Source: Polyangium sp. 15x6 (GTDB taxonomy: Bacteria > Myxococcota_A > Polyangia > Polyangiales > Polyangiaceae). Taken from it: a stretch of DNA of 54,710 nt. Shown here one piece after another: positions 8,639-33,275 of this stretch. How positions within the stretch are numbered: the first letter of the stretch is position 1; the number at the start of each line of letters is the position of its first letter. The notes under the pieces were generated by a model that saw only the letters and a list, made by a program, of their open reading frames with translations, did no database searches and was not told where the DNA came from. The DNA is taken from contig NZ_JASBQE010000082.1 of the NCBI RefSeq assembly GCF_029960785.1, positions 1 to 54,710 of the forward strand. The letters run 5' to 3'. The position numbers were made by a program, and so were the translations under genes.

Positions 8639-9310
8639 TCAGGCGTCGGTCTTCTTGGCTTTGTTGCGCTTGCGGAACGGCTTGAAAAAGCGAGCGACCT
8701 TCTTCGGGTTCGACGCGTACACGGCGGTGAGCTGACCTTCGAGCTTCTTGTACTCCGTGCGCCAGGCGGCCATGAGCGCGGGGATGCGCTTGTCGTCCAG
8801 AACAGCGAGCTCCTTCTCGCTGATGGCGAGGCTCTCGCTGGCCGCGAGGACTCTGCTGCGGGAGTTCGAGAGCTTCGGGGCCCAGGTGGCGACGAGGGAG
8901 CCGAGCTCGGGATCGTTCATGTCCTCCGTCATGCTGTCGAGCATGTCCCCCACGAGCTCGGGCTCCTCCTTGCGCGGCTCGGCGGTCGTGACCTCACGGA
9001 GGCCCTCCGGGAAATAACGACGATATCGCGGATCCTCGCGATTCTTCGTCACGAGGGCGAGGAGGCTGAGCTCGAAGCCGCCGACGTCCTCGTCGAGCTC
9101 GCTATCGCGCGCGTCGACGACGGCGCTCCTCTTTTCGGCCTCTTCCTCGAGGTCCTCGCGCTCACGGAGGATTTTCTTGAGGTCTCCGTGAATCGCCTCG
9201 AGGGGCTTTTCGAGGCCGGCGGTCTTCGGATCGGCCGCGACGCGGGAGATGCTATAGGCGCTCCGCGGGAGGTAGGCCTCCGGCGGAGTGTCTTCGGGGG
9301 GCATTTCCAT
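8639..9310 (-). CDS. Hypothetical alpha-helical cytosolic protein
   Basis: 223 residues starting MEMPPEDTPPEAYLPRSAYSISR, chosen because AAGGAG lies about nine bases upstream of the ATG and the frame before it has no protein-like composition. There is no signal peptide. Long charged helices (about 35-75, and 150-205) suggest coiled coil, and the C-terminus is strongly basic (FFKPFRKRNKAKKTDA), so nucleic-acid or membrane binding is possible. A conserved-looking YRRYFPEGLREVT segment lies in the middle. No named domain recognised. Confidence 0.75.
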   Translation of the reverse strand: MEMPPEDTPPEAYLPRSAYSISRVAADPKTAGLEKPLEAIHGDLKKILREREDLEEEAEKRSAVVDARDSELDEDVGGFELSLLALVTKNREDPRYRRYFPEGLREVTTAEPRKEEPELVGDMLDSMTEDMNDPELGSLVATWAPKLSNSRSRVLAASESLAISEKELAVLDDKRIPALMAAWRTEYKKLEGQLTAVYASNPKKVARFFKPFRKRNKAKKTDA

Positions 9311-24792: not shown

Positions 24793-25695
24793 TCACAACG
24801 CGCCGACGGTGCAGAGCCCCTCGCCGTTGAGGTGGCCCATCGACGCCGACGACGCGAGCATGAAGGACAGGAGGTCCTGCGAGGCGAGCGGCACGCTCCC
24901 GGGGTTGTAGACGACCGGCATTCCCTCGGCGTCCACGAGCGTCATCCCGTCGAGCCCCTTCAGGTCCGATAACGTCTGCGTCGCGAGATCCTCGAGCGAT
25001 ATTTCCTTGTCGGCTCCGGCGGCCGCCGCGAGCGCGTCGAAACGAAGCGACGCCTCCTCGGAGCCGAGCGTATCCCAGAAGAGATGGTCGAGATGAATCG
25101 TGATCTCCGCCTCTGTCGTCGTGTTGCCCCGGATCACCACCCCGTCCGTCCCGTCGAGCCCATTCGTGCAGCTCGTATTCCGGGTCGGGTTCGAGAGGCC
25201 CCAGGCGAACGTGTAGGTATCGCCGGCTTTCGTGGCCGTCCCCTCCATCCAATAATTGAATGTTCCGTCGATCATGGCCTGCACGTCGGCCTGGGTGACG
25301 CCGCCGAGCGCCACGGCGCTCGCATCGGGCGCGGCGATCTCGTACCCGAACCGATCCCAGCGCCTCGCCTCGAGCCCCTCGAACACCGGCAAGGACGCGT
25401 CTCCGGTGTGCAGATCGGCCACCCACCACCCCTTCGATTCGATCGCCACCGCGCCGTCCGCGCCGCGCACGTCGAGCGCGCCGAACGAAACGAGCACCTT
25501 CGCGAACTGCACGGTCCAGCCATCCGCGAAGGCAATGGCCTCCCCCTCCTCCTCGACGGGGAACCCCGTCTTCGCCGCATCCTCGCCCGTGATCCGGACG
25601 GCCAGCGCGCCCGCGCCGCTCGAGGCGTCCTCCCCGCCGCAGCCGGCTGCCATCGCAGAAAGAAAAGAAAGGACGAAGCCCACCATCGTTTTCAT
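24793..25695 (-). CDS. Lipoprotein with HLDHLFWD motif, metal-locus
   Basis: 300 residues, MKTMVGFVLSFLSAMAAGCGGED, lipobox AAGC; GGAGGG seven bases before the ATG. The N-terminal domain carries DGWTVQFAKVLVSFGALDV, matching in pattern TGWRVELGEATVAIGPVYV of the next lipoprotein upstream, so the two appear related. Further on a hydrophobic-acidic motif ITIHLDHLFWDTL (His-x-Asp-His) could bind metal. It is the third gene of the TonB-receptor operon, separated by 44 bp from the second. Probably a periplasmic or surface metal-binding partner of the receptor; inferred from context, no named family assigned. Confidence 0.75.
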   Translation of the reverse strand: MKTMVGFVLSFLSAMAAGCGGEDASSGAGALAVRITGEDAAKTGFPVEEEGEAIAFADGWTVQFAKVLVSFGALDVRGADGAVAIESKGWWVADLHTGDASLPVFEGLEARRWDRFGYEIAAPDASAVALGGVTQADVQAMIDGTFNYWMEGTATKAGDTYTFAWGLSNPTRNTSCTNGLDGTDGVVIRGNTTTEAEITIHLDHLFWDTLGSEEASLRFDALAAAAGADKEISLEDLATQTLSDLKGLDGMTLVDAEGMPVVYNPGSVPLASQDLLSFMLASSASMGHLNGEGLCTVGAL

Positions 25696-25739
25696 CGTAT
25701 ACCCTCCGATACGACGCGCCGAGGGGCGGCGGATCCGCC

Positions 25740-26570
25740 TCACCGCGCGTCGCGCGTCTCCGCCGAGAATGCGGAAAAACCCCGGGCGCCCAGAAACCAG
25801 GCCGTTCGCACCTGGCTCTCGGGCGTGATCACGAACCGCCCCGCCGCGTTTTTCTCCGTCAGCCGGTCGAAATGGGCGCCGTCGAACCAGGCACTCGGGT
25901 GGATCACGATCCCCACCACGATCCCGTCGCCGAGCGACACGTCGAGGGGGACGCCGTCGACGCTGCGCTTCGTGCCCTCCTCTTCGATATCGAGCCCACC
26001 CTCGAAAGGGACGACCAGCCCGTCCTTCTCCGCCACCCCGACCACGTATGCGTGGTGGCCGCGCAAGGCACCGCCGTCGCCTCCGATCGACGCGCGCGGC
26101 GGATCGAGCCGGATCGACAGGGAACGCGCGCGCCCCTCCGTCCCCGGCACGGGGCCGATGTACACGCCGCCGGGATCGAGCACGTCGAAGGCGAGCTGAC
26201 CCAGCCATTCCCCTTTGACCTCGCCGCCGTCGAAATGCTGGTCCCCTGCGTGGGCATGCGCGTCGGAGACAAGCACGTCCCACAGCATGTCGGACAAACC
26301 TTTGCCCCTCGGCGCGCCGAGACCCGCGAGCGGCGGCGGATTCTCGTGAACGTACACGGGCCCGATCGCCACCGTGGCCTCCCCGAGCTCGACCCTCCAG
26401 CCGGTGCTCGTCTCGAACGAGCCGGGTGGGAGCCCCGGCCTCCACGCCGTGCCAAACCGCATCTCGAATTCGATCGCGCGCCCGCCGGTTCCGCTTGGCA
26501 GGTCACAGCCGGCGGAGCCGAGGCTCCCCAAGGCGAGCAGCGCGAACGCGAAACGTGCGTCGAGATTCAT
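25740..26570 (-). CDS. Lipoprotein with His-rich loop, receptor partner
   Basis: 276 residues, MNLDARFAFALLALGSLGSAGCDLP, lipobox GSAGC. A beta-rich domain contains STGWRVELGEATVAIGPVYVHE, related to the following lipoprotein, and then a striking loop SDAHAHAGDQHFDGGEVKGEW with four His and acidic residues, a good candidate metal site. Its start overlaps the stop of the TonB receptor gene by four bases (ATGA), so the two products are made together and likely work together at the outer membrane. Function inferred as metal capture or delivery to the receptor. Confidence 0.78.
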   Translation of the reverse strand: MNLDARFAFALLALGSLGSAGCDLPSGTGGRAIEFEMRFGTAWRPGLPPGSFETSTGWRVELGEATVAIGPVYVHENPPPLAGLGAPRGKGLSDMLWDVLVSDAHAHAGDQHFDGGEVKGEWLGQLAFDVLDPGGVYIGPVPGTEGRARSLSIRLDPPRASIGGDGGALRGHHAYVVGVAEKDGLVVPFEGGLDIEEEGTKRSVDGVPLDVSLGDGIVVGIVIHPSAWFDGAHFDRLTEKNAAGRFVITPESQVRTAWFLGARGFSAFSAETRDAR

Positions 26571-28885
26571 CGTCCTGCCTCCTCCTCGCCCTTCGCCGCC
26601 TCCAGATGAAATCGTACCGTCCCGAGGATCTGACGCGGCGGCGCCGCCGCGAAATGCGGATGCGAGAGCCGCGAGGCCGGCGCGTCGGGCAAGCTGAAAT
26701 TCGACGGGTGATTGAACTCGGCCGCGCGGTTGCGGCGATCGAGCACGTTCGTCGCCTCGATTCCCACCTCGACGAAGCGATACCGGAGGCGCGCCGCGAT
26801 ATCGACCGTGAAGATGTCGTGGCCGAACTGCTCGAGCGGCAAGGGTCGCGGCGCCACGTACGTCGTCCCGAGCGCGCCCGTGGCGCGGAGGCGCACGCCC
26901 CCGACCTCGATGTCCTTGCGGACCGAGGTGTCGAGCCGCGCCACCCAGCGGGGGATGTACGGGAGCCGCTTGCCGCTCGTGAATGCATACCACGGCGCGC
27001 CCGCCTCGGGCAGGTAGGCCTCGGCGTACGTCAAGCTCCCCTGCGTGTCGATGCCCGCGCGTGAAGTGAGCCTCCCCGAGATTGACGCGCCAAACCGATT
27101 CGACGTCCCCACGAGGACATTACGCCCGCGCGCCGCGTCGAACACGAGATCCCGATCCACCCGCGTGAAATACGCGAGCGCTCGCGCGGAGACGTCGAGC
27201 GTCCTCCCCTCGGATCGCTCGAAGACAACGCCCGTCTCGAATGCGTGGACCCGGGCAAACGGCGCGCTCTCGCCGTCCGAGAGCGCCTGCGCGTCGCTCG
27301 ATCGTGATCCCGCGCCGTAACTCGTCATCCACGCGAGCCCCTTCGCGACGCCGATCTCCACCGAAGCGCGGGGCCCGAGCGTGAGCCCGAAGGCCTCGAT
27401 GGTATCCGACGGCTCCCGCGGACCGCTGCGATCCTTCTCGGGCTTGTTCCGATCCTCGACCGCGAAGCCGAACGTATCGACCCGGATCCCGCCGCGGAGC
27501 GTGAGCCACGACGCGGGCCGGAGCTTGCCCGCCGCGTATCCCGCGATGTTCGTGAGCGCGAGGCCGCTCTCGAAATCCACGCGATAGGGCACGCCGCCCA
27601 CCCGCCGGAGCCTCCGCTGCAGGGTGTCGCCCCGATCGTGTCGCGCGAAATAACCGAGCTCCAGCGATTGCCGGTGTCCCCATGCGTCCACGGCCCGCGT
27701 AAAACTCCCCCGCGCGCCGAACGTCGTCGCATCGTAGATCTGCTCGACCCCGTCCCCGCGCTGCGGCTCGCCCGAGGGGCGCACGTCCGTGACGAACCCC
27801 GTGAAATTCTCGCGGAGCCGCGTCTTTCGGATCGTGGCGAAGACCTGGTGTGTATGCTCCTCGCGCGTGCCCTTGTGCTCGAATCGGAGGGACGCGTCGA
27901 GCCGCGCGACGGCGCCGCCCTGGTTCGGATCGTAGGTGCAGAAGAACTGGCTGTCGTGGTCCTCGGGGCAATCGAGCCTGCGCGCCTCGAAATCGTCCTG
28001 ACGCACCACACCCGCGCCGTCGAAGCGCGTGGTGTACGCCGAGACGAGCGCGACGAGCCGGCTCGCCGCGCCGAAGCGGTGCTCGTATTGCGCCATCGAG
28101 CGGGCCGCGGTGCTCGCCCGGCTCCGACCGAACCCGTCGCTGTCGGTCACGGAGAGGCCGACGAACGTACCGCGCGGCGTGCCCCCGGGGCCCCACAAAA
28201 GGAGGAGGCGCTTCGTGTCGAACGAGCCGTACCCCGCCTGCGCAACGATTCCCCGCTCCGCGAGCCCAAGCGTGTATTCGACCGATCCCGCGACCGCGAA
28301 ATCCCCCTGGCGCGGGTCGAAGGGTCCCTCCACCACGCGTAGCTCCTCCACGAGCTCCGGGATCACGAAATGCGTGTCGGCGTATCCGTGACCGTGCGCG
28401 TTCGACGGCTCGTTCAGCGGGATGCCGCCCACGGACATCTCGAGGTCTTGCCCCTCGGCCGCGCTGAAGCCCCGCAGGAAGATGGCCGACGGGTGCCCTT
28501 CGCCGCCGTGGTTTTGCAGGAGAAACCCGGGCGCGAGCGTCAGCAATTGCTCGGCCGAGCGCCGCGGCACGTCGGCGAGCTGTCCCACGCGGACGCGGTG
28601 ATCCCCGGCCGCGCTGGGCGGCGGCGGTCGTGACGAACCGCGCACGACCACCTCGCCGCGCGGCTCCTCGGACTCGTCTGGTTCGTTCGTCGCGGGCGAC
28701 ACCGGCTTTTTCGGCTCGTGGATGGGCCCGTTCGAGGTCGCATCCTCGCGCGGCGGCGAGGGTTCGTCCGCGGACGCGAGCCCCGGCGCGCAGGCGAGCA
28801 CCAACGGCATGAGCGGGCGCGCGCAGCACCTCGCGACACGAGCCCACGTCGAGGCCTGTCCTTTCCCAGACGAACCGAGGTTCAC
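26567..28885 (-). CDS. TonB-dependent outer-membrane receptor, predicted metal uptake
   Basis: 772 residues from a GTG at 28885. After a signal peptide (PLMPLVLACAPGLASA) and a Pro/Glu linker comes the plug (about 80-200: VVVRGSSRPPPPSAAGDHRV, FLRGFSAAEGQDLEMSVGGIPLNEPSNAHGHGYADTHF) and a 22-strand-type barrel ending in ILGTVRFHLEA. The plug carries a His cluster (HGHGYADTH), and an extracellular-type loop has CPEDHDSQFFCTYD with two Cys; both suit a metal or metal-complex ligand. It heads an operon with two His-bearing lipoproteins and is divergent from the AztD-like gene across a 71-bp gap that contains GTTGCAAC. I infer zinc, by its neighbours. Confidence 0.88.
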   Translation of the reverse strand: MNLGSSGKGQASTWARVARCCARPLMPLVLACAPGLASADEPSPPREDATSNGPIHEPKKPVSPATNEPDESEEPRGEVVVRGSSRPPPPSAAGDHRVRVGQLADVPRRSAEQLLTLAPGFLLQNHGGEGHPSAIFLRGFSAAEGQDLEMSVGGIPLNEPSNAHGHGYADTHFVIPELVEELRVVEGPFDPRQGDFAVAGSVEYTLGLAERGIVAQAGYGSFDTKRLLLLWGPGGTPRGTFVGLSVTDSDGFGRSRASTAARSMAQYEHRFGAASRLVALVSAYTTRFDGAGVVRQDDFEARRLDCPEDHDSQFFCTYDPNQGGAVARLDASLRFEHKGTREEHTHQVFATIRKTRLRENFTGFVTDVRPSGEPQRGDGVEQIYDATTFGARGSFTRAVDAWGHRQSLELGYFARHDRGDTLQRRLRRVGGVPYRVDFESGLALTNIAGYAAGKLRPASWLTLRGGIRVDTFGFAVEDRNKPEKDRSGPREPSDTIEAFGLTLGPRASVEIGVAKGLAWMTSYGAGSRSSDAQALSDGESAPFARVHAFETGVVFERSEGRTLDVSARALAYFTRVDRDLVFDAARGRNVLVGTSNRFGASISGRLTSRAGIDTQGSLTYAEAYLPEAGAPWYAFTSGKRLPYIPRWVARLDTSVRKDIEVGGVRLRATGALGTTYVAPRPLPLEQFGHDIFTVDIAARLRYRFVEVGIEATNVLDRRNRAAEFNHPSNFSLPDAPASRLSHPHFAAAPPRQILGTVRFHLEAAKGEEEAGR

Positions 28886-28919
28886 GGTGGATGGCTCCGT
28901 GTACTTCTAAAGCATCTAA

Positions 28920-28927
28920 GTTGCAAC
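28920..28927. promoter_or_regulatory. GTTGCAAC operator candidate, site 1
   Basis: Perfect 8-bp palindrome in an AT-rich island in the 71-bp gap between the divergent TonB-receptor and AztD-like genes, 35 bp from the first and 30 bp from the second start. The same octamer occurs upstream of three other transcription units of the locus. Confidence 0.6.
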
Positions 28928-28956
28928 AACAATCTGTACGTGATAAGAGCGAGTGG

Positions 28957-30249
28957 ATGCTCGACCGGTTTTGTCACGTGAAACGTGCTGGTTTGTCGCG
29001 CCTCGGGTTCGTCCTCGCCGCGCTCGCGGGGGCGGCGTGTGGCCCCGACGGCGATGTCGCGGGGCCCGCAACGGACCTCGAGACGCGCCACCCCTCTTGG
29101 CGTCGCGCGCGGGTGGCCGTCGCGGATGGCGTTTCGGGCGCGGTCTCGATCTTCGACGTCGAAGAGGACGCGTGGATCGCCACGCTCCCAGGGGACGGCC
29201 CTGTATCGATGCACGCGACGGAGTCCGGCGATTTCGCGGTGCTGCTCTCCTCCGGGCGCGGCGAAGGGCATTTTTTGCGCGCGGGTGTGTCCGTCGCGCC
29301 GCACGACGACCACCTCCACATCTACAAATTCGAGACGGCCCTGCACGAGCTCACCATCGAGGGCGCGGCGCCGGGGGCCACCCTCTCCAGCGCGGGCCAA
29401 GTCGCGCTCTTCTTCGAGGGATCGGCGGCGGACGGGGCCCCCGCGCAAGCCGCCGTGGTCTCGGAGGAGGCGCTCCGGATTCGCGGCGAGACGCCGGTGC
29501 CGAAGTGGTTCGTCGCGGAGGCACCTCATCGCGGATCGGCGGCTGCCGTGGAAGGAGGTGTCCTCATGACGCGCCCCTTGCCGGGCGACCCGGAAGGGCG
29601 AGCCGAGGGCGTCTCATTCGTGAACGAGAGCGGCAGCGCTGAGGTGATCATGCCGAGCTGCCCCGCGCTTTCAGGGGCGGCTCCCGTCGAAGGTCTCGTC
29701 GCCTTCGCATGCGAGGACGGAGTGCTCGTCGTGGAGCCGTCCGAGGACGGCGGGAGCATGATCGGCGCCAAGTGGCCTTATCCCGGAGACGGCCCTGCGC
29801 GCACGTTGGTGGGGCATGGCCCGCGCGGCTTCGTCGTCGGCGATCTCGGCCCCGCGGCATTGTTTCGATTCGAGGCAGGCACGGGAGCCTCGGCGCGCTT
29901 CGACGTGGGCGCGGAGACGTGCCTCTTCGGGATCGAGCCGCGCGGCGAGGCGCTCTTCGCCTTGACGAGCGACGGCGCCCTTCGGCGGATCGAGCTCGCG
30001 ACGGGCGCGATCACATCACTCGGCGGCATCGTTCCGCCCTTCGCCTGCGAGGGACAGGGGCCGAGGCACGGGCTCGCGCTCACGCCCGATCGCGCATTCG
30101 TGACGGCGCCGGGCTCGGGTGAGGTCCTGGAGATCGACGCCGATCCGCTCGTGATGGTCGAGCGGCACGTCCTCGGAGGCGCGCCGAGCGGGATCGTGGT
30201 GCTCGGGCTCGACACGAGGAACATCGACCTCGCGCCCGGCGCGCACTGA
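28957..30249 (+). CDS. AztD-like periplasmic metallochaperone (beta-propeller)
   Basis: About 430 residues with a lipoprotein-type signal (LSRLGFVLAALAGAACGPDG). The fold is a repeated beta-propeller (ARVAVADGVSGAVSIFDVEED ... VAFACEDGVLVVEP ... ALTSDGALRRIELATG ... AFVTAPGSGEVLEIDAD). The segment APHDDHLHIYKFE, followed by QVALFFEG, AVVSEEAL and APHRGSAAAVEGG, follows the order of features in AztD, the zinc-binding protein that loads the ABC solute-binding protein AztC; the Asp-Asp-His-x-His loop would be the metal site. The ATG at 28957 is chosen because the upstream ATG at 28891 would place the operator inside the gene; GTG at 28978 is also possible. No ABC transporter is encoded in the window. 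Confidence 0.8.
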   Translation: MLDRFCHVKRAGLSRLGFVLAALAGAACGPDGDVAGPATDLETRHPSWRRARVAVADGVSGAVSIFDVEEDAWIATLPGDGPVSMHATESGDFAVLLSSGRGEGHFLRAGVSVAPHDDHLHIYKFETALHELTIEGAAPGATLSSAGQVALFFEGSAADGAPAQAAVVSEEALRIRGETPVPKWFVAEAPHRGSAAAVEGGVLMTRPLPGDPEGRAEGVSFVNESGSAEVIMPSCPALSGAAPVEGLVAFACEDGVLVVEPSEDGGSMIGAKWPYPGDGPARTLVGHGPRGFVVGDLGPAALFRFEAGTGASARFDVGAETCLFGIEPRGEALFALTSDGALRRIELATGAITSLGGIVPPFACEGQGPRHGLALTPDRAFVTAPGSGEVLEIDADPLVMVERHVLGGAPSGIVVLGLDTRNIDLAPGAH

Positions 30250-30256
30250 GGATCGC

Positions 30257-30832
30257 TCAGTGGCAATGGTCCACGTGGCAATCCATCGAGCAGCAATCCT
30301 CGGGCTTCTGGCAAGGCCCGCCCGCGGGTGAGCAGGCGCTCGGATCACGGCAGAAGCCGAGGGGCCCGAGCGCCGCGTCGAACGGCTCGCACGTCTCGCC
30401 CTGGGCGCACTCGGCGCTCGCGCAGCAGAACTTCTTGCACGTGCCGTTGCAATGCAACGTCGGCGCGCAGAAAGGGCCGCTTCCATTGTTACACGCCTCG
30501 CCCTCCTTGGCCTCGTTCGGGGGTGGGTAACAATAGAATCCGTGCTTCCCCTGCTTCTCCCCGAAGTCGCAGGCTTCGCCCGCGCCCTCGCACCCCGCGT
30601 TCGTCAACGGATTGCACGTCGCGGTGCCCGTGAAGCACGCAGGCGTGACGCCTCCGCCACCTTCGCCGCCTGCTCCGCCTGTTCCGCCTGTCCCGCCCTG
30701 GCCACCGGCGCCGCCCTGGCCGCCTGTCCCGCCCTGGCCGCCGGCGCCGCCCTGGCCATTGCTTCCACCGTCCCCGCAGCCGAAGGCACCGATCACGAGG
30801 GACGCGATCAGCATCCACCTGAGACTTCGCAT
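30257..30832 (-). CDS. Cys-rich lipoprotein with Gly-rich tether
   Basis: 191 residues, MRSLRWMLIASLVIGAFGCGDGG, lipobox FGC. A Gly/Gln/Thr tether of about 40 residues (GGQGGTGGQGGAGG) leads to a domain with about 20 cysteines (CNPLTNAGCEGAGEACDFG, CNGTCKKFCCASAECAQGETC, CCSMDCHVDHCH), resembling Dickkopf/EGF-like myxobacterial Cys-rich domains. The C-terminus CHVDHCH could bind metal. It converges with the AztD-like gene (7-bp gap) and its own upstream region has GTTGCAAC about 116 bp before the start, which ties it to the locus. Role unknown. Confidence 0.8.
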   Translation of the reverse strand: MRSLRWMLIASLVIGAFGCGDGGSNGQGGAGGQGGTGGQGGAGGQGGTGGTGGAGGEGGGGVTPACFTGTATCNPLTNAGCEGAGEACDFGEKQGKHGFYCYPPPNEAKEGEACNNGSGPFCAPTLHCNGTCKKFCCASAECAQGETCEPFDAALGPLGFCRDPSACSPAGGPCQKPEDCCSMDCHVDHCH

Positions 30833-30947
30833 GACACTCCTTTGGAAAGAAAAAGGGCGCGAACGTCACCAACGCTGGCAGAGAGGGCCGGGCGTGGAGG
30901 AGGGAGACGTCCGCGTCCGGGGCAGACCCTAGCAGGCAACGATTGCA

Positions 30948-30955
30948 GTTGCAAC
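30948..30955. promoter_or_regulatory. GTTGCAAC operator candidate, site 2
   Basis: The octamer lies in the context GATTGCAGTTGCAACAAAG in the gap before the Cys-rich lipoprotein gene. A second TTGCA half-like element directly precedes it. Confidence 0.5.
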
Positions 30956-31026
30956 AAAGATACGGTTTGTGGACCGAGGCCTGTTCCGATCTACGAGATA
31001 CAGGTCCTCGGCGGGAGCGAGCGCGG

Positions 31027-31722
31027 TCACGAGCCCTTGTCGTAGGTCGTCGCGACGAGCACGACGCGGGTGAGGCCGAACGCCTGGATCGGCGGTGATC
31101 GATGCACCGCCGCCCGTTCATTGCCCGGATAACGCTCCCCTTTGAGGATCACGACGTCGCCGGCGTTTGCCCGTCGAATCTTGCCGGCATCACGCACGAT
31201 CCGCCGATTGGCCTCCGCGGGGGAAGGCGGCGCGAGGTCGAGCTCCTCGCGGCAGACGGCGTCCTCCGGCAACCACTCCGTCCCGGGGCCGAGGTACGTG
31301 GTGACGAGGCGGAGGCGCACGTAGTCCACGTGGAACTTGCGGCATTGATCGTTGCGTATCGCTCCGAAAAACACCTGGATGCGCGGCACGCCGGCGAGAG
31401 CCGCGAAGAGCTGGAGCAGGCGCCCGACATCCGCGCGGAGCGGGCTCGCTGCGTCGGCGGGGTCGAACAGCCGGCCCTCCTTTATCTCTGCGGCGTCGAA
31501 GATCCCCTCGAAGTCGTCCTTGCGGCTGGCCCGCGCCGCGATCTCGGGGCCGAGGTCCGGCGGGAGCAGGCGCGCCCAGATCGCGACGTTCACGGAGGGC
31601 TCGTGGATGGAGGCGAGGACGTCGGGATCGCCGCCGATGCGGAACGAGCCATCCTCGGGGGCCACGGGGCGCGAAGAGAAAGGGAGAGAAGCGTGCTGGA
31701 GCATGGGATGTCCTCCATTCAC
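31027..31722 (-). CDS. DUF1826 domain-containing protein
   Basis: 231 residues, cytosolic. The segments CRKFHVDYVRLRLVTTYLGPGTEWLPEDAV and AAVHRSPPIQAFGLTRVVLVATTY match the DUF1826 pattern: His/Asp in FHVD, GPGTEW, and a later His-Arg-Ser-Pro-Pro, an arrangement resembling iron/2-oxoglutarate oxygenase cupins though no activity is established. DUF1826 genes recur in other bacteria near Zur-regulated COG0523 metallochaperones, so its presence supports a zinc theme. Its start overlaps the stop of the upstream gene by four bases (31719-31722). Confidence 0.82.
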   Translation of the reverse strand: MNGGHPMLQHASLPFSSRPVAPEDGSFRIGGDPDVLASIHEPSVNVAIWARLLPPDLGPEIAARASRKDDFEGIFDAAEIKEGRLFDPADAASPLRADVGRLLQLFAALAGVPRIQVFFGAIRNDQCRKFHVDYVRLRLVTTYLGPGTEWLPEDAVCREELDLAPPSPAEANRRIVRDAGKIRRANAGDVVILKGERYPGNERAAVHRSPPIQAFGLTRVVLVATTYDKGS

Positions 31723-32174
31723 GAGCGCACCGGCAGGATCGGCGCCCAGACGAGCTTCGCGAGCATCTCGTCACTCACGAGCACCCCGCGGTCCGAAAAA
31801 ACGAGCACGTTGCGCGGCTCGCCTTCGTGGTCCTCGGCGACGAAGAGGATCCCGCGCCCCTCTCCGTTGTATCCGAGCTGCACGATCGCGTTCTTCAGCC
31901 AGCGCCCGCCGCCGTCGAGCGCGAGGTCGTGTGGGAGCGTGTAGAAGCCCTCCGAAGGCAAACGTTTCAGCGACTCGGCCCAGCTCACGGAGCGGAGCAC
32001 GTAGGTGGGTTTGCCCCAGAACCAGCGATTCCGGCGGTTCTGGCCGGGGCGAACCACGAAGGCGACGCCGTCCTCGACGCCGACGTACACGAGGACGCCG
32101 GCGGGGATCGCCTCCTCCTGGCCAGGGTAGGGCTTCGTGGTCCGGTAGAGGCCGGGCTCCGGCTGCTTGATCAT
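31719..32174 (-). CDS. Hypothetical protein, first gene of DUF1826 operon
   Basis: 151 residues, MIKQPEPGLYRTTKPYPGQEEAIPAG, no signal peptide, beta-rich (VLVYVGVEDGVAFVVRPGQNRRNRWFWGKPTYVL). It is translationally coupled to the DUF1826 gene and divergent from the gene at 32226 across a 51-bp gap containing GTTGCAAC, so it belongs to the same regulon. No known domain recognised. Confidence 0.78.
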   Translation of the reverse strand: MIKQPEPGLYRTTKPYPGQEEAIPAGVLVYVGVEDGVAFVVRPGQNRRNRWFWGKPTYVLRSVSWAESLKRLPSEGFYTLPHDLALDGGGRWLKNAIVQLGYNGEGRGILFVAEDHEGEPRNVLVFSDRGVLVSDEMLAKLVWAPILPVRS

Positions 32175-32205
32175 GGTGGGCGCTTCTATATTGCAAACGC
32201 ATCAC

Positions 32206-32215
32206 AGTTGCAACT
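32206..32215. promoter_or_regulatory. AGTTGCAACT operator candidate, site 3
   Basis: Ten-bp perfect palindrome in the 51-bp gap between two divergent genes, 32 bp from one start and 11 bp from the other. A separate TTGCAA at 32191-32196 lies one and a half helical turns away. Confidence 0.6.
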
Positions 32216-32225
32216 ATAGTTCGAC

Positions 32226-32672
32226 ATGGACTGCAACACGCAACACGAGCACGAGGAGCTCTGCCGTCACGCGGTGCGCCACCTCCACGAGGCAGGCTTC
32301 TCCCCGATCGCCGGCGGGCCGGCAGGAGGGCTCTACATGCGGCGTATCGCCGTGGACTCGACGCTCACCCTCGCGTACGAGCCGTCCGCGGGCCTCCTCA
32401 GGCTCTCGGTGACGTTCGTCCGCGGCGCGGCGACACGAGGGATCTTCCGGGGCGGGCGCGCCGAGCTCCGGATCTTCGCCACGTCCTCGCTCCTCGGCCT
32501 GCTCTGCTGGATCACGTCGTCACACGACGATCTCTCGGCGTTCGAGGCGGACGCGTGGCTCGAGCAGATCCTCTCGCTCTGCCCGGCGACGTACGTGGTG
32601 CTCGAATCCAGGAGCGGCGAGGAGGTCCTCGCGCTCGTCATGCCCCAGGAGGCCAGCGCGATGCTGCAATGA
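32226..32672 (+). CDS. Hypothetical small protein of the metal locus
   Basis: 148 residues, MDCNTQHEHEELCRHAVRHLHEAGF. The first 22 residues hold two Cys and five His, a possible metal site, with no signal peptide. The rest is a small alpha/beta domain (LTLAYEPSAGLLRLSVTFVRG, TYVVLESRSGEEVLALVMP). Transcription starts from a gap with the shared palindrome. It converges with the MerC-like gene, with 12 bp between stops. Function unknown. Confidence 0.72.
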   Translation: MDCNTQHEHEELCRHAVRHLHEAGFSPIAGGPAGGLYMRRIAVDSTLTLAYEPSAGLLRLSVTFVRGAATRGIFRGGRAELRIFATSSLLGLLCWITSSHDDLSAFEADAWLEQILSLCPATYVVLESRSGEEVLALVMPQEASAMLQ

Positions 32673-32684
32673 AGAGGCGTGCGC

Positions 32685-33221
32685 TCAGGCGGCTTGCTTC
32701 GCCGGGCGCGCCGGGCTCGGCAAGGCTCGATGCTGCCAGATGGACGCCGCCACGAGGACCACGATCGACGCCCAGGCGAGGGCTTCGATCTCGCCGAGGA
32801 GGTGGCTCGCGACGAGGCCGATGGAACCGGCGAGCGAGAGCGCGAGCGGGCCTTTGCGGCGTGATCGCACATAACGACGGACGCTCACCACGAGCGTCAC
32901 CGCGACCGCGACGACGAGCAGGACGTGGTGCTGCGCCTCGGTGACCACGAAGCCAACGCCGAGGGCGGAGAGCGCCTGCGCCCAAGCGCCGAGGCACGTG
33001 GGGCAGACGGCGCAGGCGAGGACCGGGAGCACCACGCTCAGCAAGGACGAGCGGCCGGGCGTGGCCTTCCCAGCGGGCCGAGAATGATGGCGGTGGTGCG
33101 CGCAGCAGGCCTCATGGGAGTCCTCGGCGTGCGCTCGATGCTCGAGGCGGGTGGGCTCGGCGCATCCGGTCTGCGTGGTGTCCAAGGGAAGGCTCGCACG
33201 TACGTTCATGAGGACCATCAT
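32685..33221 (-). CDS. MerC-like membrane protein with His/Cys-rich N-terminus
   Basis: About 178 residues. A cytoplasmic N-terminal stretch rich in metal ligands (HRAHAEDSHEACCAHHRHH) precedes four predicted membrane helices. The first holds VLACAVCPTCLGAWAQALSALG, the Cys-x-x-Cys pair placed as in MerC-family transporters; the others are HVLLVVAVAVTLVVSV, LALSLAGSIGLVASHLL and LAWASIVVLVAASIW. In this setting zinc or another soft metal is more likely than mercury, as no mer genes are near. The start is set at or near 33221 (MMVLMNVRAS, alternative 33209) because the longer frame from 33275 would include the operator palindrome at 33237-33248. Confidence 0.75.
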   Translation of the reverse strand: MMVLMNVRASLPLDTTQTGCAEPTRLEHRAHAEDSHEACCAHHRHHSRPAGKATPGRSSLLSVVLPVLACAVCPTCLGAWAQALSALGVGFVVTEAQHHVLLVVAVAVTLVVSVRRYVRSRRKGPLALSLAGSIGLVASHLLGEIEALAWASIVVLVAASIWQHRALPSPARPAKQAA

Positions 33222-33229
33222 GAACGTAC
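33200..33229. promoter_or_regulatory. 12-bp perfect inverted repeat over the MerC-like start codons
   Basis: GTACGTTCATGA and TCATGAACGTAC pair perfectly around GGACCA and cover the candidate ATG codons at 33209-33221. As RNA it would form a stable hairpin at the start site; as DNA it is a plausible operator distinct from GTTGCAAC. Confidence 0.5.
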
Positions 33230-33236
33230 ATGTCTT

Positions 33237-33248
33237 CTGTTGCAACAG
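33237..33248. promoter_or_regulatory. CTGTTGCAACAG operator candidate, site 4
   Basis: Twelve-bp perfect palindrome 16-28 bp upstream of the MerC-like gene, extending the shared GTTGCAAC core. Confidence 0.6.
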
Positions 33249-33275
33249 CGCTGTAGCTGCTACACCTTTCTCCAC

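Follow-up and report, generated by a model that had tools for sequence, protein, structure and literature searches.

Genes at the locus

The window, by which we mean the whole stretch of 54,710 nucleotides that was analysed, is contig C256 of the 13.4 Mb genome of Polyangium sp. 15x6 (68% G+C). Its central part holds a compact gene cluster, organized as follows.

24793..25695, minus strand: LipA, 300-aa lipoprotein with a predicted MbnP-like fold; no Pfam or NCBIfam match
25740..26570, minus strand: LipB, 276-aa lipoprotein with a predicted MbnP-like fold and a His-rich AHAHxGxxHFDGG loop
26567..28885, minus strand: TonB-dependent receptor, start at 28885 (GTG) or 28810; PF00593 and PF07715 over cut-off
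28957..30249, plus strand: AztD-like lipoprotein, 430 aa; NF038015 111 bits, CkAztD (6cmk) 96 bits
30257..30832, minus strand: Cys-rich, Gly-rich lipoprotein, 191 aa with 21 Cys; the P. fumosum orthologue has its own box
31027..31722, minus strand: DUF1826 protein; PF08856 153.9 bits, above the gathering cut-off of 22
31719..32174, minus strand: 151-aa protein, no family assigned; relatives adjoin such clusters in loci L102, L126, L134 and L147
32226..32672, plus strand: 148-aa protein with a His/Cys-rich N-terminus; relatives in L100, L102 and L134
32685..33221, minus strand: MerC-like membrane protein with a His/Cys-rich N-terminus; PF03203 28.3 bits, cut-off 27.6

The start of LipB overlaps the end of the TonB receptor gene by 4 bp, so these genes probably form an operon. 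The gap between the TonB receptor and AztD-like genes is 71 bp long (28886-28956), and that between the genes of the 151-aa and 148-aa proteins 51 bp (32175-32225). This gene content is much as a sequence-only reading of the same DNA had described it. The TonB receptor (PF00593 41 bits, PF07715 35.7), DUF1826 and MerC genes exceed their Pfam cut-offs, the last with 28.3 bits against 27.6 in Pfam but 18.4 against 140 in the NCBIfam MerC model. The 430-aa lipoprotein scores 111.3 bits with NF038015, below the curated cut-off of 400, and is for this reason named AztD-like. The remaining five cluster proteins match no Pfam or NCBIfam profile with an E-value of 0.1 or below.

An inverted repeat of 12 pairs, GTACGTTCATG...CATGAACGTAC, spans the start codon of the MerC-like gene at 33200-33229. 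A promoter scan returned a single sigma-70-like site (32191-32220), which overlaps box 3 (see below) and is to be regarded as weak because 0.4 such sites are expected.

The octamer and the full box

The sequence-only reading had placed the palindrome GTTGCAAC in four gaps that serve all six transcription units, among them the 71 and 51 bp gaps, and this is confirmed. The octamer has four matches in the 54,710 bases (at 28920, 30948, 32207 and 33239), which lie only in these gaps; 0.40 are expected, and none of 100 shuffles reaches four. Outside the window there are 57 matches in 13.4 Mb, which corresponds to 0.019 expected per 4.5 kb, and the probability of at least four is about 6e-9 per stretch and 2e-5 genome-wide.

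The octamer as a self-sufficient operator had to be given up, however. Genome-wide it occurs 61 times, compared with 45 times for the reversed control, a frequency close to the background level that the earlier reading had itself named as counting against it. Because of this, and because 27 of the 44 outside sites that were read (57 in total) fall inside called genes, the octamer alone does not make up the operator. Rather, it comprises one half, plus the overlap, of a box of approximately 17-23 bp with the consensus GCAAY-N3-RTTGC: the two strong sites of the window read GCATC-N3-GTTGC, with GTTGCAAC made up of the right half plus three bases, while at 30946 and 33237 it is the left half that the octamer contains, the right half being a poor match.

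The full box was defined in relatives, with DUF1826 as the hook. This family is present in 48 of 183 genomes of the order; 40 loci were taken, and their genes were called by codon use and then compared with the window genes. TonB receptor, LipB, LipA, AztD-like, DUF1826, C-minus L33 and COG0523 genes recur together in these loci in varying subsets. Of the 106 regions upstream of genes of these families, 51 contain the pattern GCAA-N5-TTGC (27 loci, the window genome excluded; gaps between divergent genes counted from both sides), where 0.27 are expected. The extended form of the box is ATGCAAC-N3-GTTGCAT, and its fuller form approximately TGATGCAAY-N3-RTTGCATCA. A scoring matrix built from 52 sites in relatives, none of them from the window genome, ranks the four window sites first at 22.0, 21.6, 12.3 and 11.0 bits; the next score, overlapping copies aside, is 6.9.

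28907..28929, no strand: predicted Zur-type box 1, 21.6 bits; common to the TonB operon and the AztD-like gene; reached by 0 of 2000 gap shuffles
30946..30968, no strand: predicted box 2, degenerate, 12.3 bits; 9 of 2000 shuffles; P. fumosum counterpart 19.6 bits
32194..32216, no strand: predicted box 3, 22.0 bits; 0 of 2000 shuffles; weaker overlapping copies at 32188 and 32205
33237..33259, no strand: predicted box 4, degenerate, 11.0 bits; 13 of 2000 shuffles; P. fumosum counterpart 17.1 bits

The DUF1826 loci of two congeners (L100 and L102) hold a counterpart of box 3 that scores 22.2 bits.

The longer palindrome WGTTGCAACW is rarer than the octamer, with 10 places genome-wide and 2 for the control. 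One of the 10 is on contig C190, upstream of a gene pair for a C-minus L33 and a ZigA-like COG0523 protein (see below). Several others were considered as boxes and rejected: those on contigs C111, C211 and C190 (position 108687) all lie inside called genes, that on C275 (10.6 bits) falls where a lipoprotein gene encodes its signal peptide, and that on C88 is upstream of a PAS/STAS gene, yet the matrix finds no box there.

Conservation of the box

In a leave-one-genome-out test at 12 bits, a box was found upstream of zinc-family genes in 74 of 106 cases compared with 16 of 240 for other genes, the latter figure overstating the background because the other genes include likely targets that were found later (S18, NicO and H-x-C-x-H lipoprotein genes). 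Fisher's test gives 7e-34 with the regions treated as independent. Since these 40 loci had also served to discover the motif, the test is cross-validated by genome yet not wholly independent; the more independent tests are P. fumosum, the own genome and the S18 contrast.

The LipA protein of P. fumosum is 89% identical to that of the window, and the corresponding four gaps hold boxes of 19.6, 17.1, 15.5 and 14.9 bits, with the next score at 9.2. DUF1826 is merely a remnant at this locus (26.2 bits), and the 148-aa gene is not called there. A strict form of the pattern occurs at four places in the 14.8 Mb of Sorangium cellulosum So0157-2, all in two zinc clusters, and at none for the control; these clusters were part of the training set, while the genome-wide absence of further strict sites was not, and the strict pattern also misses further boxes within the clusters. 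The own genome has eight strict places and none for the control. The strong ones are on C190 (29.2 bits), C4 (28.4), C197 (23.1) and in the window (22.0); the weak ones on C144 (10.6), C238 (9.2), C65 (5.4) and C15 (at most 5.2) were not counted as part of the regulon. The C197 box lies about 90 bp upstream of a gene for a VanW-G5 domain protein (L144; C197:102083).

Among TonB genes related to the window receptor, 10 of the 12 scored have a box in the preceding gap, or 11 with L153, whose 23.4-bit box at 8999 lies partly beyond the scored range (which ended at 9012). The gap in genome G120 (L162) scored 9.4. The C231 set described below was scored in addition to these 12 loci. Among the 12, L111 and L126 belong to the training set itself, L148, L149 and L151 include stretches that were used for training, and L150, L160 and L162 are separate loci in genomes that had contributed to it; TonB matches in L104, L117 and L155 stand outside the 12. 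More generally, L148, L149, L151 and L154 come from genomes already represented in the 40 loci.

Predicted zinc-type targets elsewhere

The sequence-only reading had predicted a zinc-type acquisition regulon and had proposed to look for the site before COG0523 genes, ribosomal paralogues, znuABC and zur. The first two of these gave a positive answer. In the own genome a 29.2-bit box on contig C190 precedes a pair of genes for a C-minus L33, which has no CxxC and one lone Cys, and a ZigA-like COG0523 GTPase (588.5 bits, just below the cut-off of 600). The relatives have the box upstream of L33, COG0523, DUF1826 and second S18 genes that encode no zinc ribbon, and none of the 13 L33 proteins in the 40 loci has a CxxC. 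Two S18 cases had first been noticed by their box, and for this reason all four second copies were then tested. A second S18 gene is present in 4 of 60 genomes, all four without the CxxC zinc ribbon, and three of the four have a box (29.2, 20.6 and 15.6 bits); the fourth is behind another gene, with no box in the 3 kb read. In contrast, none of the 30 best-scoring S18 genes has a box, and all 28 of those that were readable have cysteine. Boxes before C-minus L33/COG0523 and zinc-ribbon-less S18 genes, with none at the best-scoring S18 genes, are a predicted signature of zinc starvation, and they support the zinc-type assignment. Where a second S18 gene exists (four of the 60 genomes searched), it lies within approximately 0.4 kb of a DUF1826 gene in three cases (G070, G074 and G168).

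The search before znuABC had the opposite outcome: at 12 bits no box was found at any of 30 loci (of 54 genomes with ZnuA), the best score being 10.7. The earlier reading had noted neither an ABC importer nor a recognisable regulator in the window; znuABC of the own genome is on contig C258, and its four Fur-family genes are likewise outside the window.

Two further groups of genes were observed next to boxes. Strong boxes of 21.7-28.4 bits repeatedly precede genes for lipoproteins that contain an H-x-C-x-H motif, in many cases with GPF after it (L139:790-1356, which is on C4 of the own genome; L122:12483-13403; L126:14192-14695; L148:5849-6337; L114; L152:8362-8832), and three of the four that were scanned have no Pfam family. 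Genes for NicO-type permeases have boxes of 26.8-31.4 bits (L125:13115-13741, L105:14876-15517 and L131:19574-19900, the last assigned by eye), some of them near MerC-like genes; these could be zinc or nickel permeases of the regulon.

A candidate regulator

Three of the four Fur-family proteins of the own genome are closest to the Fur, PerR and PerR/Irr models of NCBIfam, none over cut-off. The fourth, FurD (C205:42589-43035), matches every named Fur-type model weakly, with 26.4 bits against 167 for Zur. FurD is the best match of genes in 7 of the 40 loci (6 genomes), while the other three proteins are the best match in none; further matches to FurD are in L150, L156 and L162, with L156 as the only one that may add a genome. 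The regulator would thus most likely be an unlinked Fur-family protein, with neighbourhood and elimination pointing to FurD. A strong box before the candidate zur gene, which had also been proposed as a check, was not seen in the own genome, where the FurD promoter contains GCATC-N3-GTTGC but scores 6.0 bits, its flanks being poor; in relatives the gene has a box in two of six cases.

The putative capture proteins

The models of LipA and LipB (pLDDT 82.4 and 80.0) both have MbnP as the best structural match. For LipA the Z-score is 9.6 over 191 residues at 4.1 Å, with the next unrelated structure at 5.2; for LipB it is 9.6 over 194 residues at 4.2 Å, with the next at 6.7. TM-scores are modest (0.27-0.43). 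LipA and LipB are thus predicted to have the MbnP fold. Neither protein has an NCBIfam match, including MbnP TIGR04052, at E up to 1, or a sequence match to MbnP in the PDB, and profile searches against Pfam and PDB sequences gave nothing useful. In LipA, the HxDH motif (201-204), H288 and the pair C176/C295 are invariant in 10 aligned rows; in the alignment that includes two LipA paralogues of the own genome, H288 is absent from one of 10. A search of 108 genomes of the bacterial family found LipA and its paralogues in 98. A third paralogue of the own genome (L158:7547, contig C220) has a 19.0-bit box 45 bp upstream, and no receptor or LipB match was found in the 16 kb read around it.

The AztD-like protein has H116, H119, H121 and the C-terminal H430 where AztD has its site 2, that is, HxxHxH and a C-terminal His in place of HxxHxD and a C-terminal His, with Asp replaced by His (AztD ligands from PMC6689063). 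By reading of the alignment, two of the three site-1 His are replaced.

The TonB receptor has no PDB sequence match at 0.001. At its N-terminus the P. fumosum receptor (L147:6583-9129) has a TonB_C domain (PF03544, 41 bits), which is also present in the copies of Sorangium (L148) and of contig C231; the window receptor is without this stretch, in what looks like a clean in-frame deletion. The C231 copy belongs to a second TonB-LipB-LipA set of the own genome (L157:7613-11699), 36, 30 and 36% identical to the window proteins, and no box was found at this set. Could it be a module for another metal? A gene for the diheme protein MbnH is absent from contig C256; C218 and C240 carry the two MbnH genes that score over cut-off.

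A proposed zinc-starvation regulon and its alternatives

We propose, with a probability of roughly 0.82, that the locus is the main cluster of a Zur-type zinc-starvation regulon, with a Fur-family repressor encoded elsewhere and zinc capture in the envelope as its output. A zinc-loaded repressor, most likely FurD, would sit on the ATGCAAC-N3-GTTGCAT boxes between divergent genes and keep the six units shut off; as zinc falls, it would release them. The TonB receptor would then carry zinc, as such or chelated, across the outer membrane, and LipB, LipA and the AztD-like lipoprotein would accept the metal and hand it over, probably to the boxless ZnuABC importer. DUF1826, the MerC-like protein and the small His/Cys proteins may assist. 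As for the earlier suggestion of a new outer-membrane metal-capture system, its plausibility stands and the system is conserved; metal capture as such is a predicted function.

The boxes could be partly due to chance, with only boxes 1 and 3 being operators and the Cys-rich lipoprotein and MerC-like genes outside the regulon. The low scores of boxes 2 and 4 (12.3 and 11.0 bits, equalled or exceeded in 9 and 13 of 2000 shuffles) and the 5 matches of at least 11 bits in 45 other loci of the own genome (357 kb, most chosen for the octamer) speak for this. The corresponding boxes of P. fumosum are better, however, at 19.6 and 17.1 bits, and the MerC-like genes of relatives have a box in four cases out of four, so we consider this explanation unlikely. 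The capture module might instead serve copper, with LipA and LipB as MbnP-like copper proteins whose place in the cluster is a coincidence. Copper is the metal for which MbnP is known, and MbnP is the only clear structural match of the LipA and LipB models; MbnP is also often paired with a TonB receptor in methanobactin operons, going by the available part of PMC3621798. Such a function is quite improbable in our view, given the lack of an MbnH gene on the contig and of sequence similarity to MbnP, the zinc-type box and partners, and the boxes before 10 of 12 related TonB genes.

We give very little credence to a regulon that answers to nickel or cobalt through a Nur-like regulator. It is kept as a rival because of the similar core of the Nur box; TonB receptors for nickel exist, and the NicO-type permeases of relatives have boxes of 25-31 bits, partly in gaps shared with a divergent gene. 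The box resembles the Streptomyces Nur box tTGCaa-N5-ttGCAA as it appears in the available text of PMC3919588. Against this, C-minus L33, zinc-ribbon-less S18, ZigA-like COG0523, DUF1826 and AztD-like genes under one box are a zinc set, and a box of the same consensus is a predicted Zur site in Desulfovibrio (see below).

Returning to the zinc-starvation regulon, a wider reading can be offered tentatively, and as a whole we would hold it rather less than evenly probable: the TonB receptor, LipB, LipA and the AztD-like protein would form an outer-membrane zinc relay in which the AztD-like protein delivers the metal to ZnuA, and the receptor-LipB-LipA module, of which the own genome has the second, boxless copy on C231, would serve myxobacteria generally as a unit for metal capture that is retuned for different metals. 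The divergent LipB and LipA would take zinc, perhaps from a secreted chelator by analogy with MbnP and methanobactin.

Comparison with known systems

The target genes of the Polyangium box are of the zinc type; the targets of Nur in Streptomyces are nickel genes. The core TGCAA-N5-TTGCA is common to the Nur box and the Polyangiales box, judged from the portion of PMC3919588 that was available.

The closest precedent is the work of Rodionov et al. 2004, in which ATGCAACNNNGTTGCAT is the predicted Zur site upstream of znuABC-zur of two Desulfovibrio species (PMC545781, available in part). Half-sites and spacing are the same as in the Polyangiales box, but the latter precedes TonB, AztD-like, DUF1826, COG0523 and ribosomal genes and not znuABC. 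The present work extends this prediction to a large myxobacterial order and provides a ready target list; among the listed open-access matches, judged by title and the start of the abstract, no paper concerns Zur targets in myxobacteria.

COG0523 and DUF1826 have been found in one Zur regulon before, as is proposed here. In the accessible parts of the sources, a figure legend of Haas et al. 2009 on Zur-regulated COG0523 clusters includes DUF1826 and an outer-membrane protein (PMC2770081), and a DUF1826 gene emerged in RNA-seq for Zur in Francisella (PMC5786701). Those parts do not mention AztD or MbnP-fold lipoproteins, unlike the cluster of Polyangium. Paracoccus AztD is strongly induced by lack of zinc, according to the available portion of PMC5387054. 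The AztD-like protein has in common with the AztABCD system of that organism (PMC6689063 and PMC5387054, in the sections at hand) a His cluster at the position of site 2, the C-terminal His and, by prediction, the context of zinc lack; it differs in being a lipoprotein without adjoining AztABC, with two of three site-1 His replaced by reading of the alignment. This suggests that AztD-like proteins work outside an ABC operon.

The MbnT-MbnP-MbnH methanobactin operons (PMC3621798, available in part) likewise combine a TonB receptor with an MbnP-fold partner, whereas here there are two lipoproteins of predicted MbnP fold, no adjoining MbnH, no sequence similarity found and a Zur-type box. An unnamed lipoprotein family, LipA, and its partner of predicted MbnP fold would in this way be tied to metal uptake. 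The capture module would be a new variant of TonB-dependent metal acquisition; the switch is of a known kind, and the set of putative capture proteins looks new.
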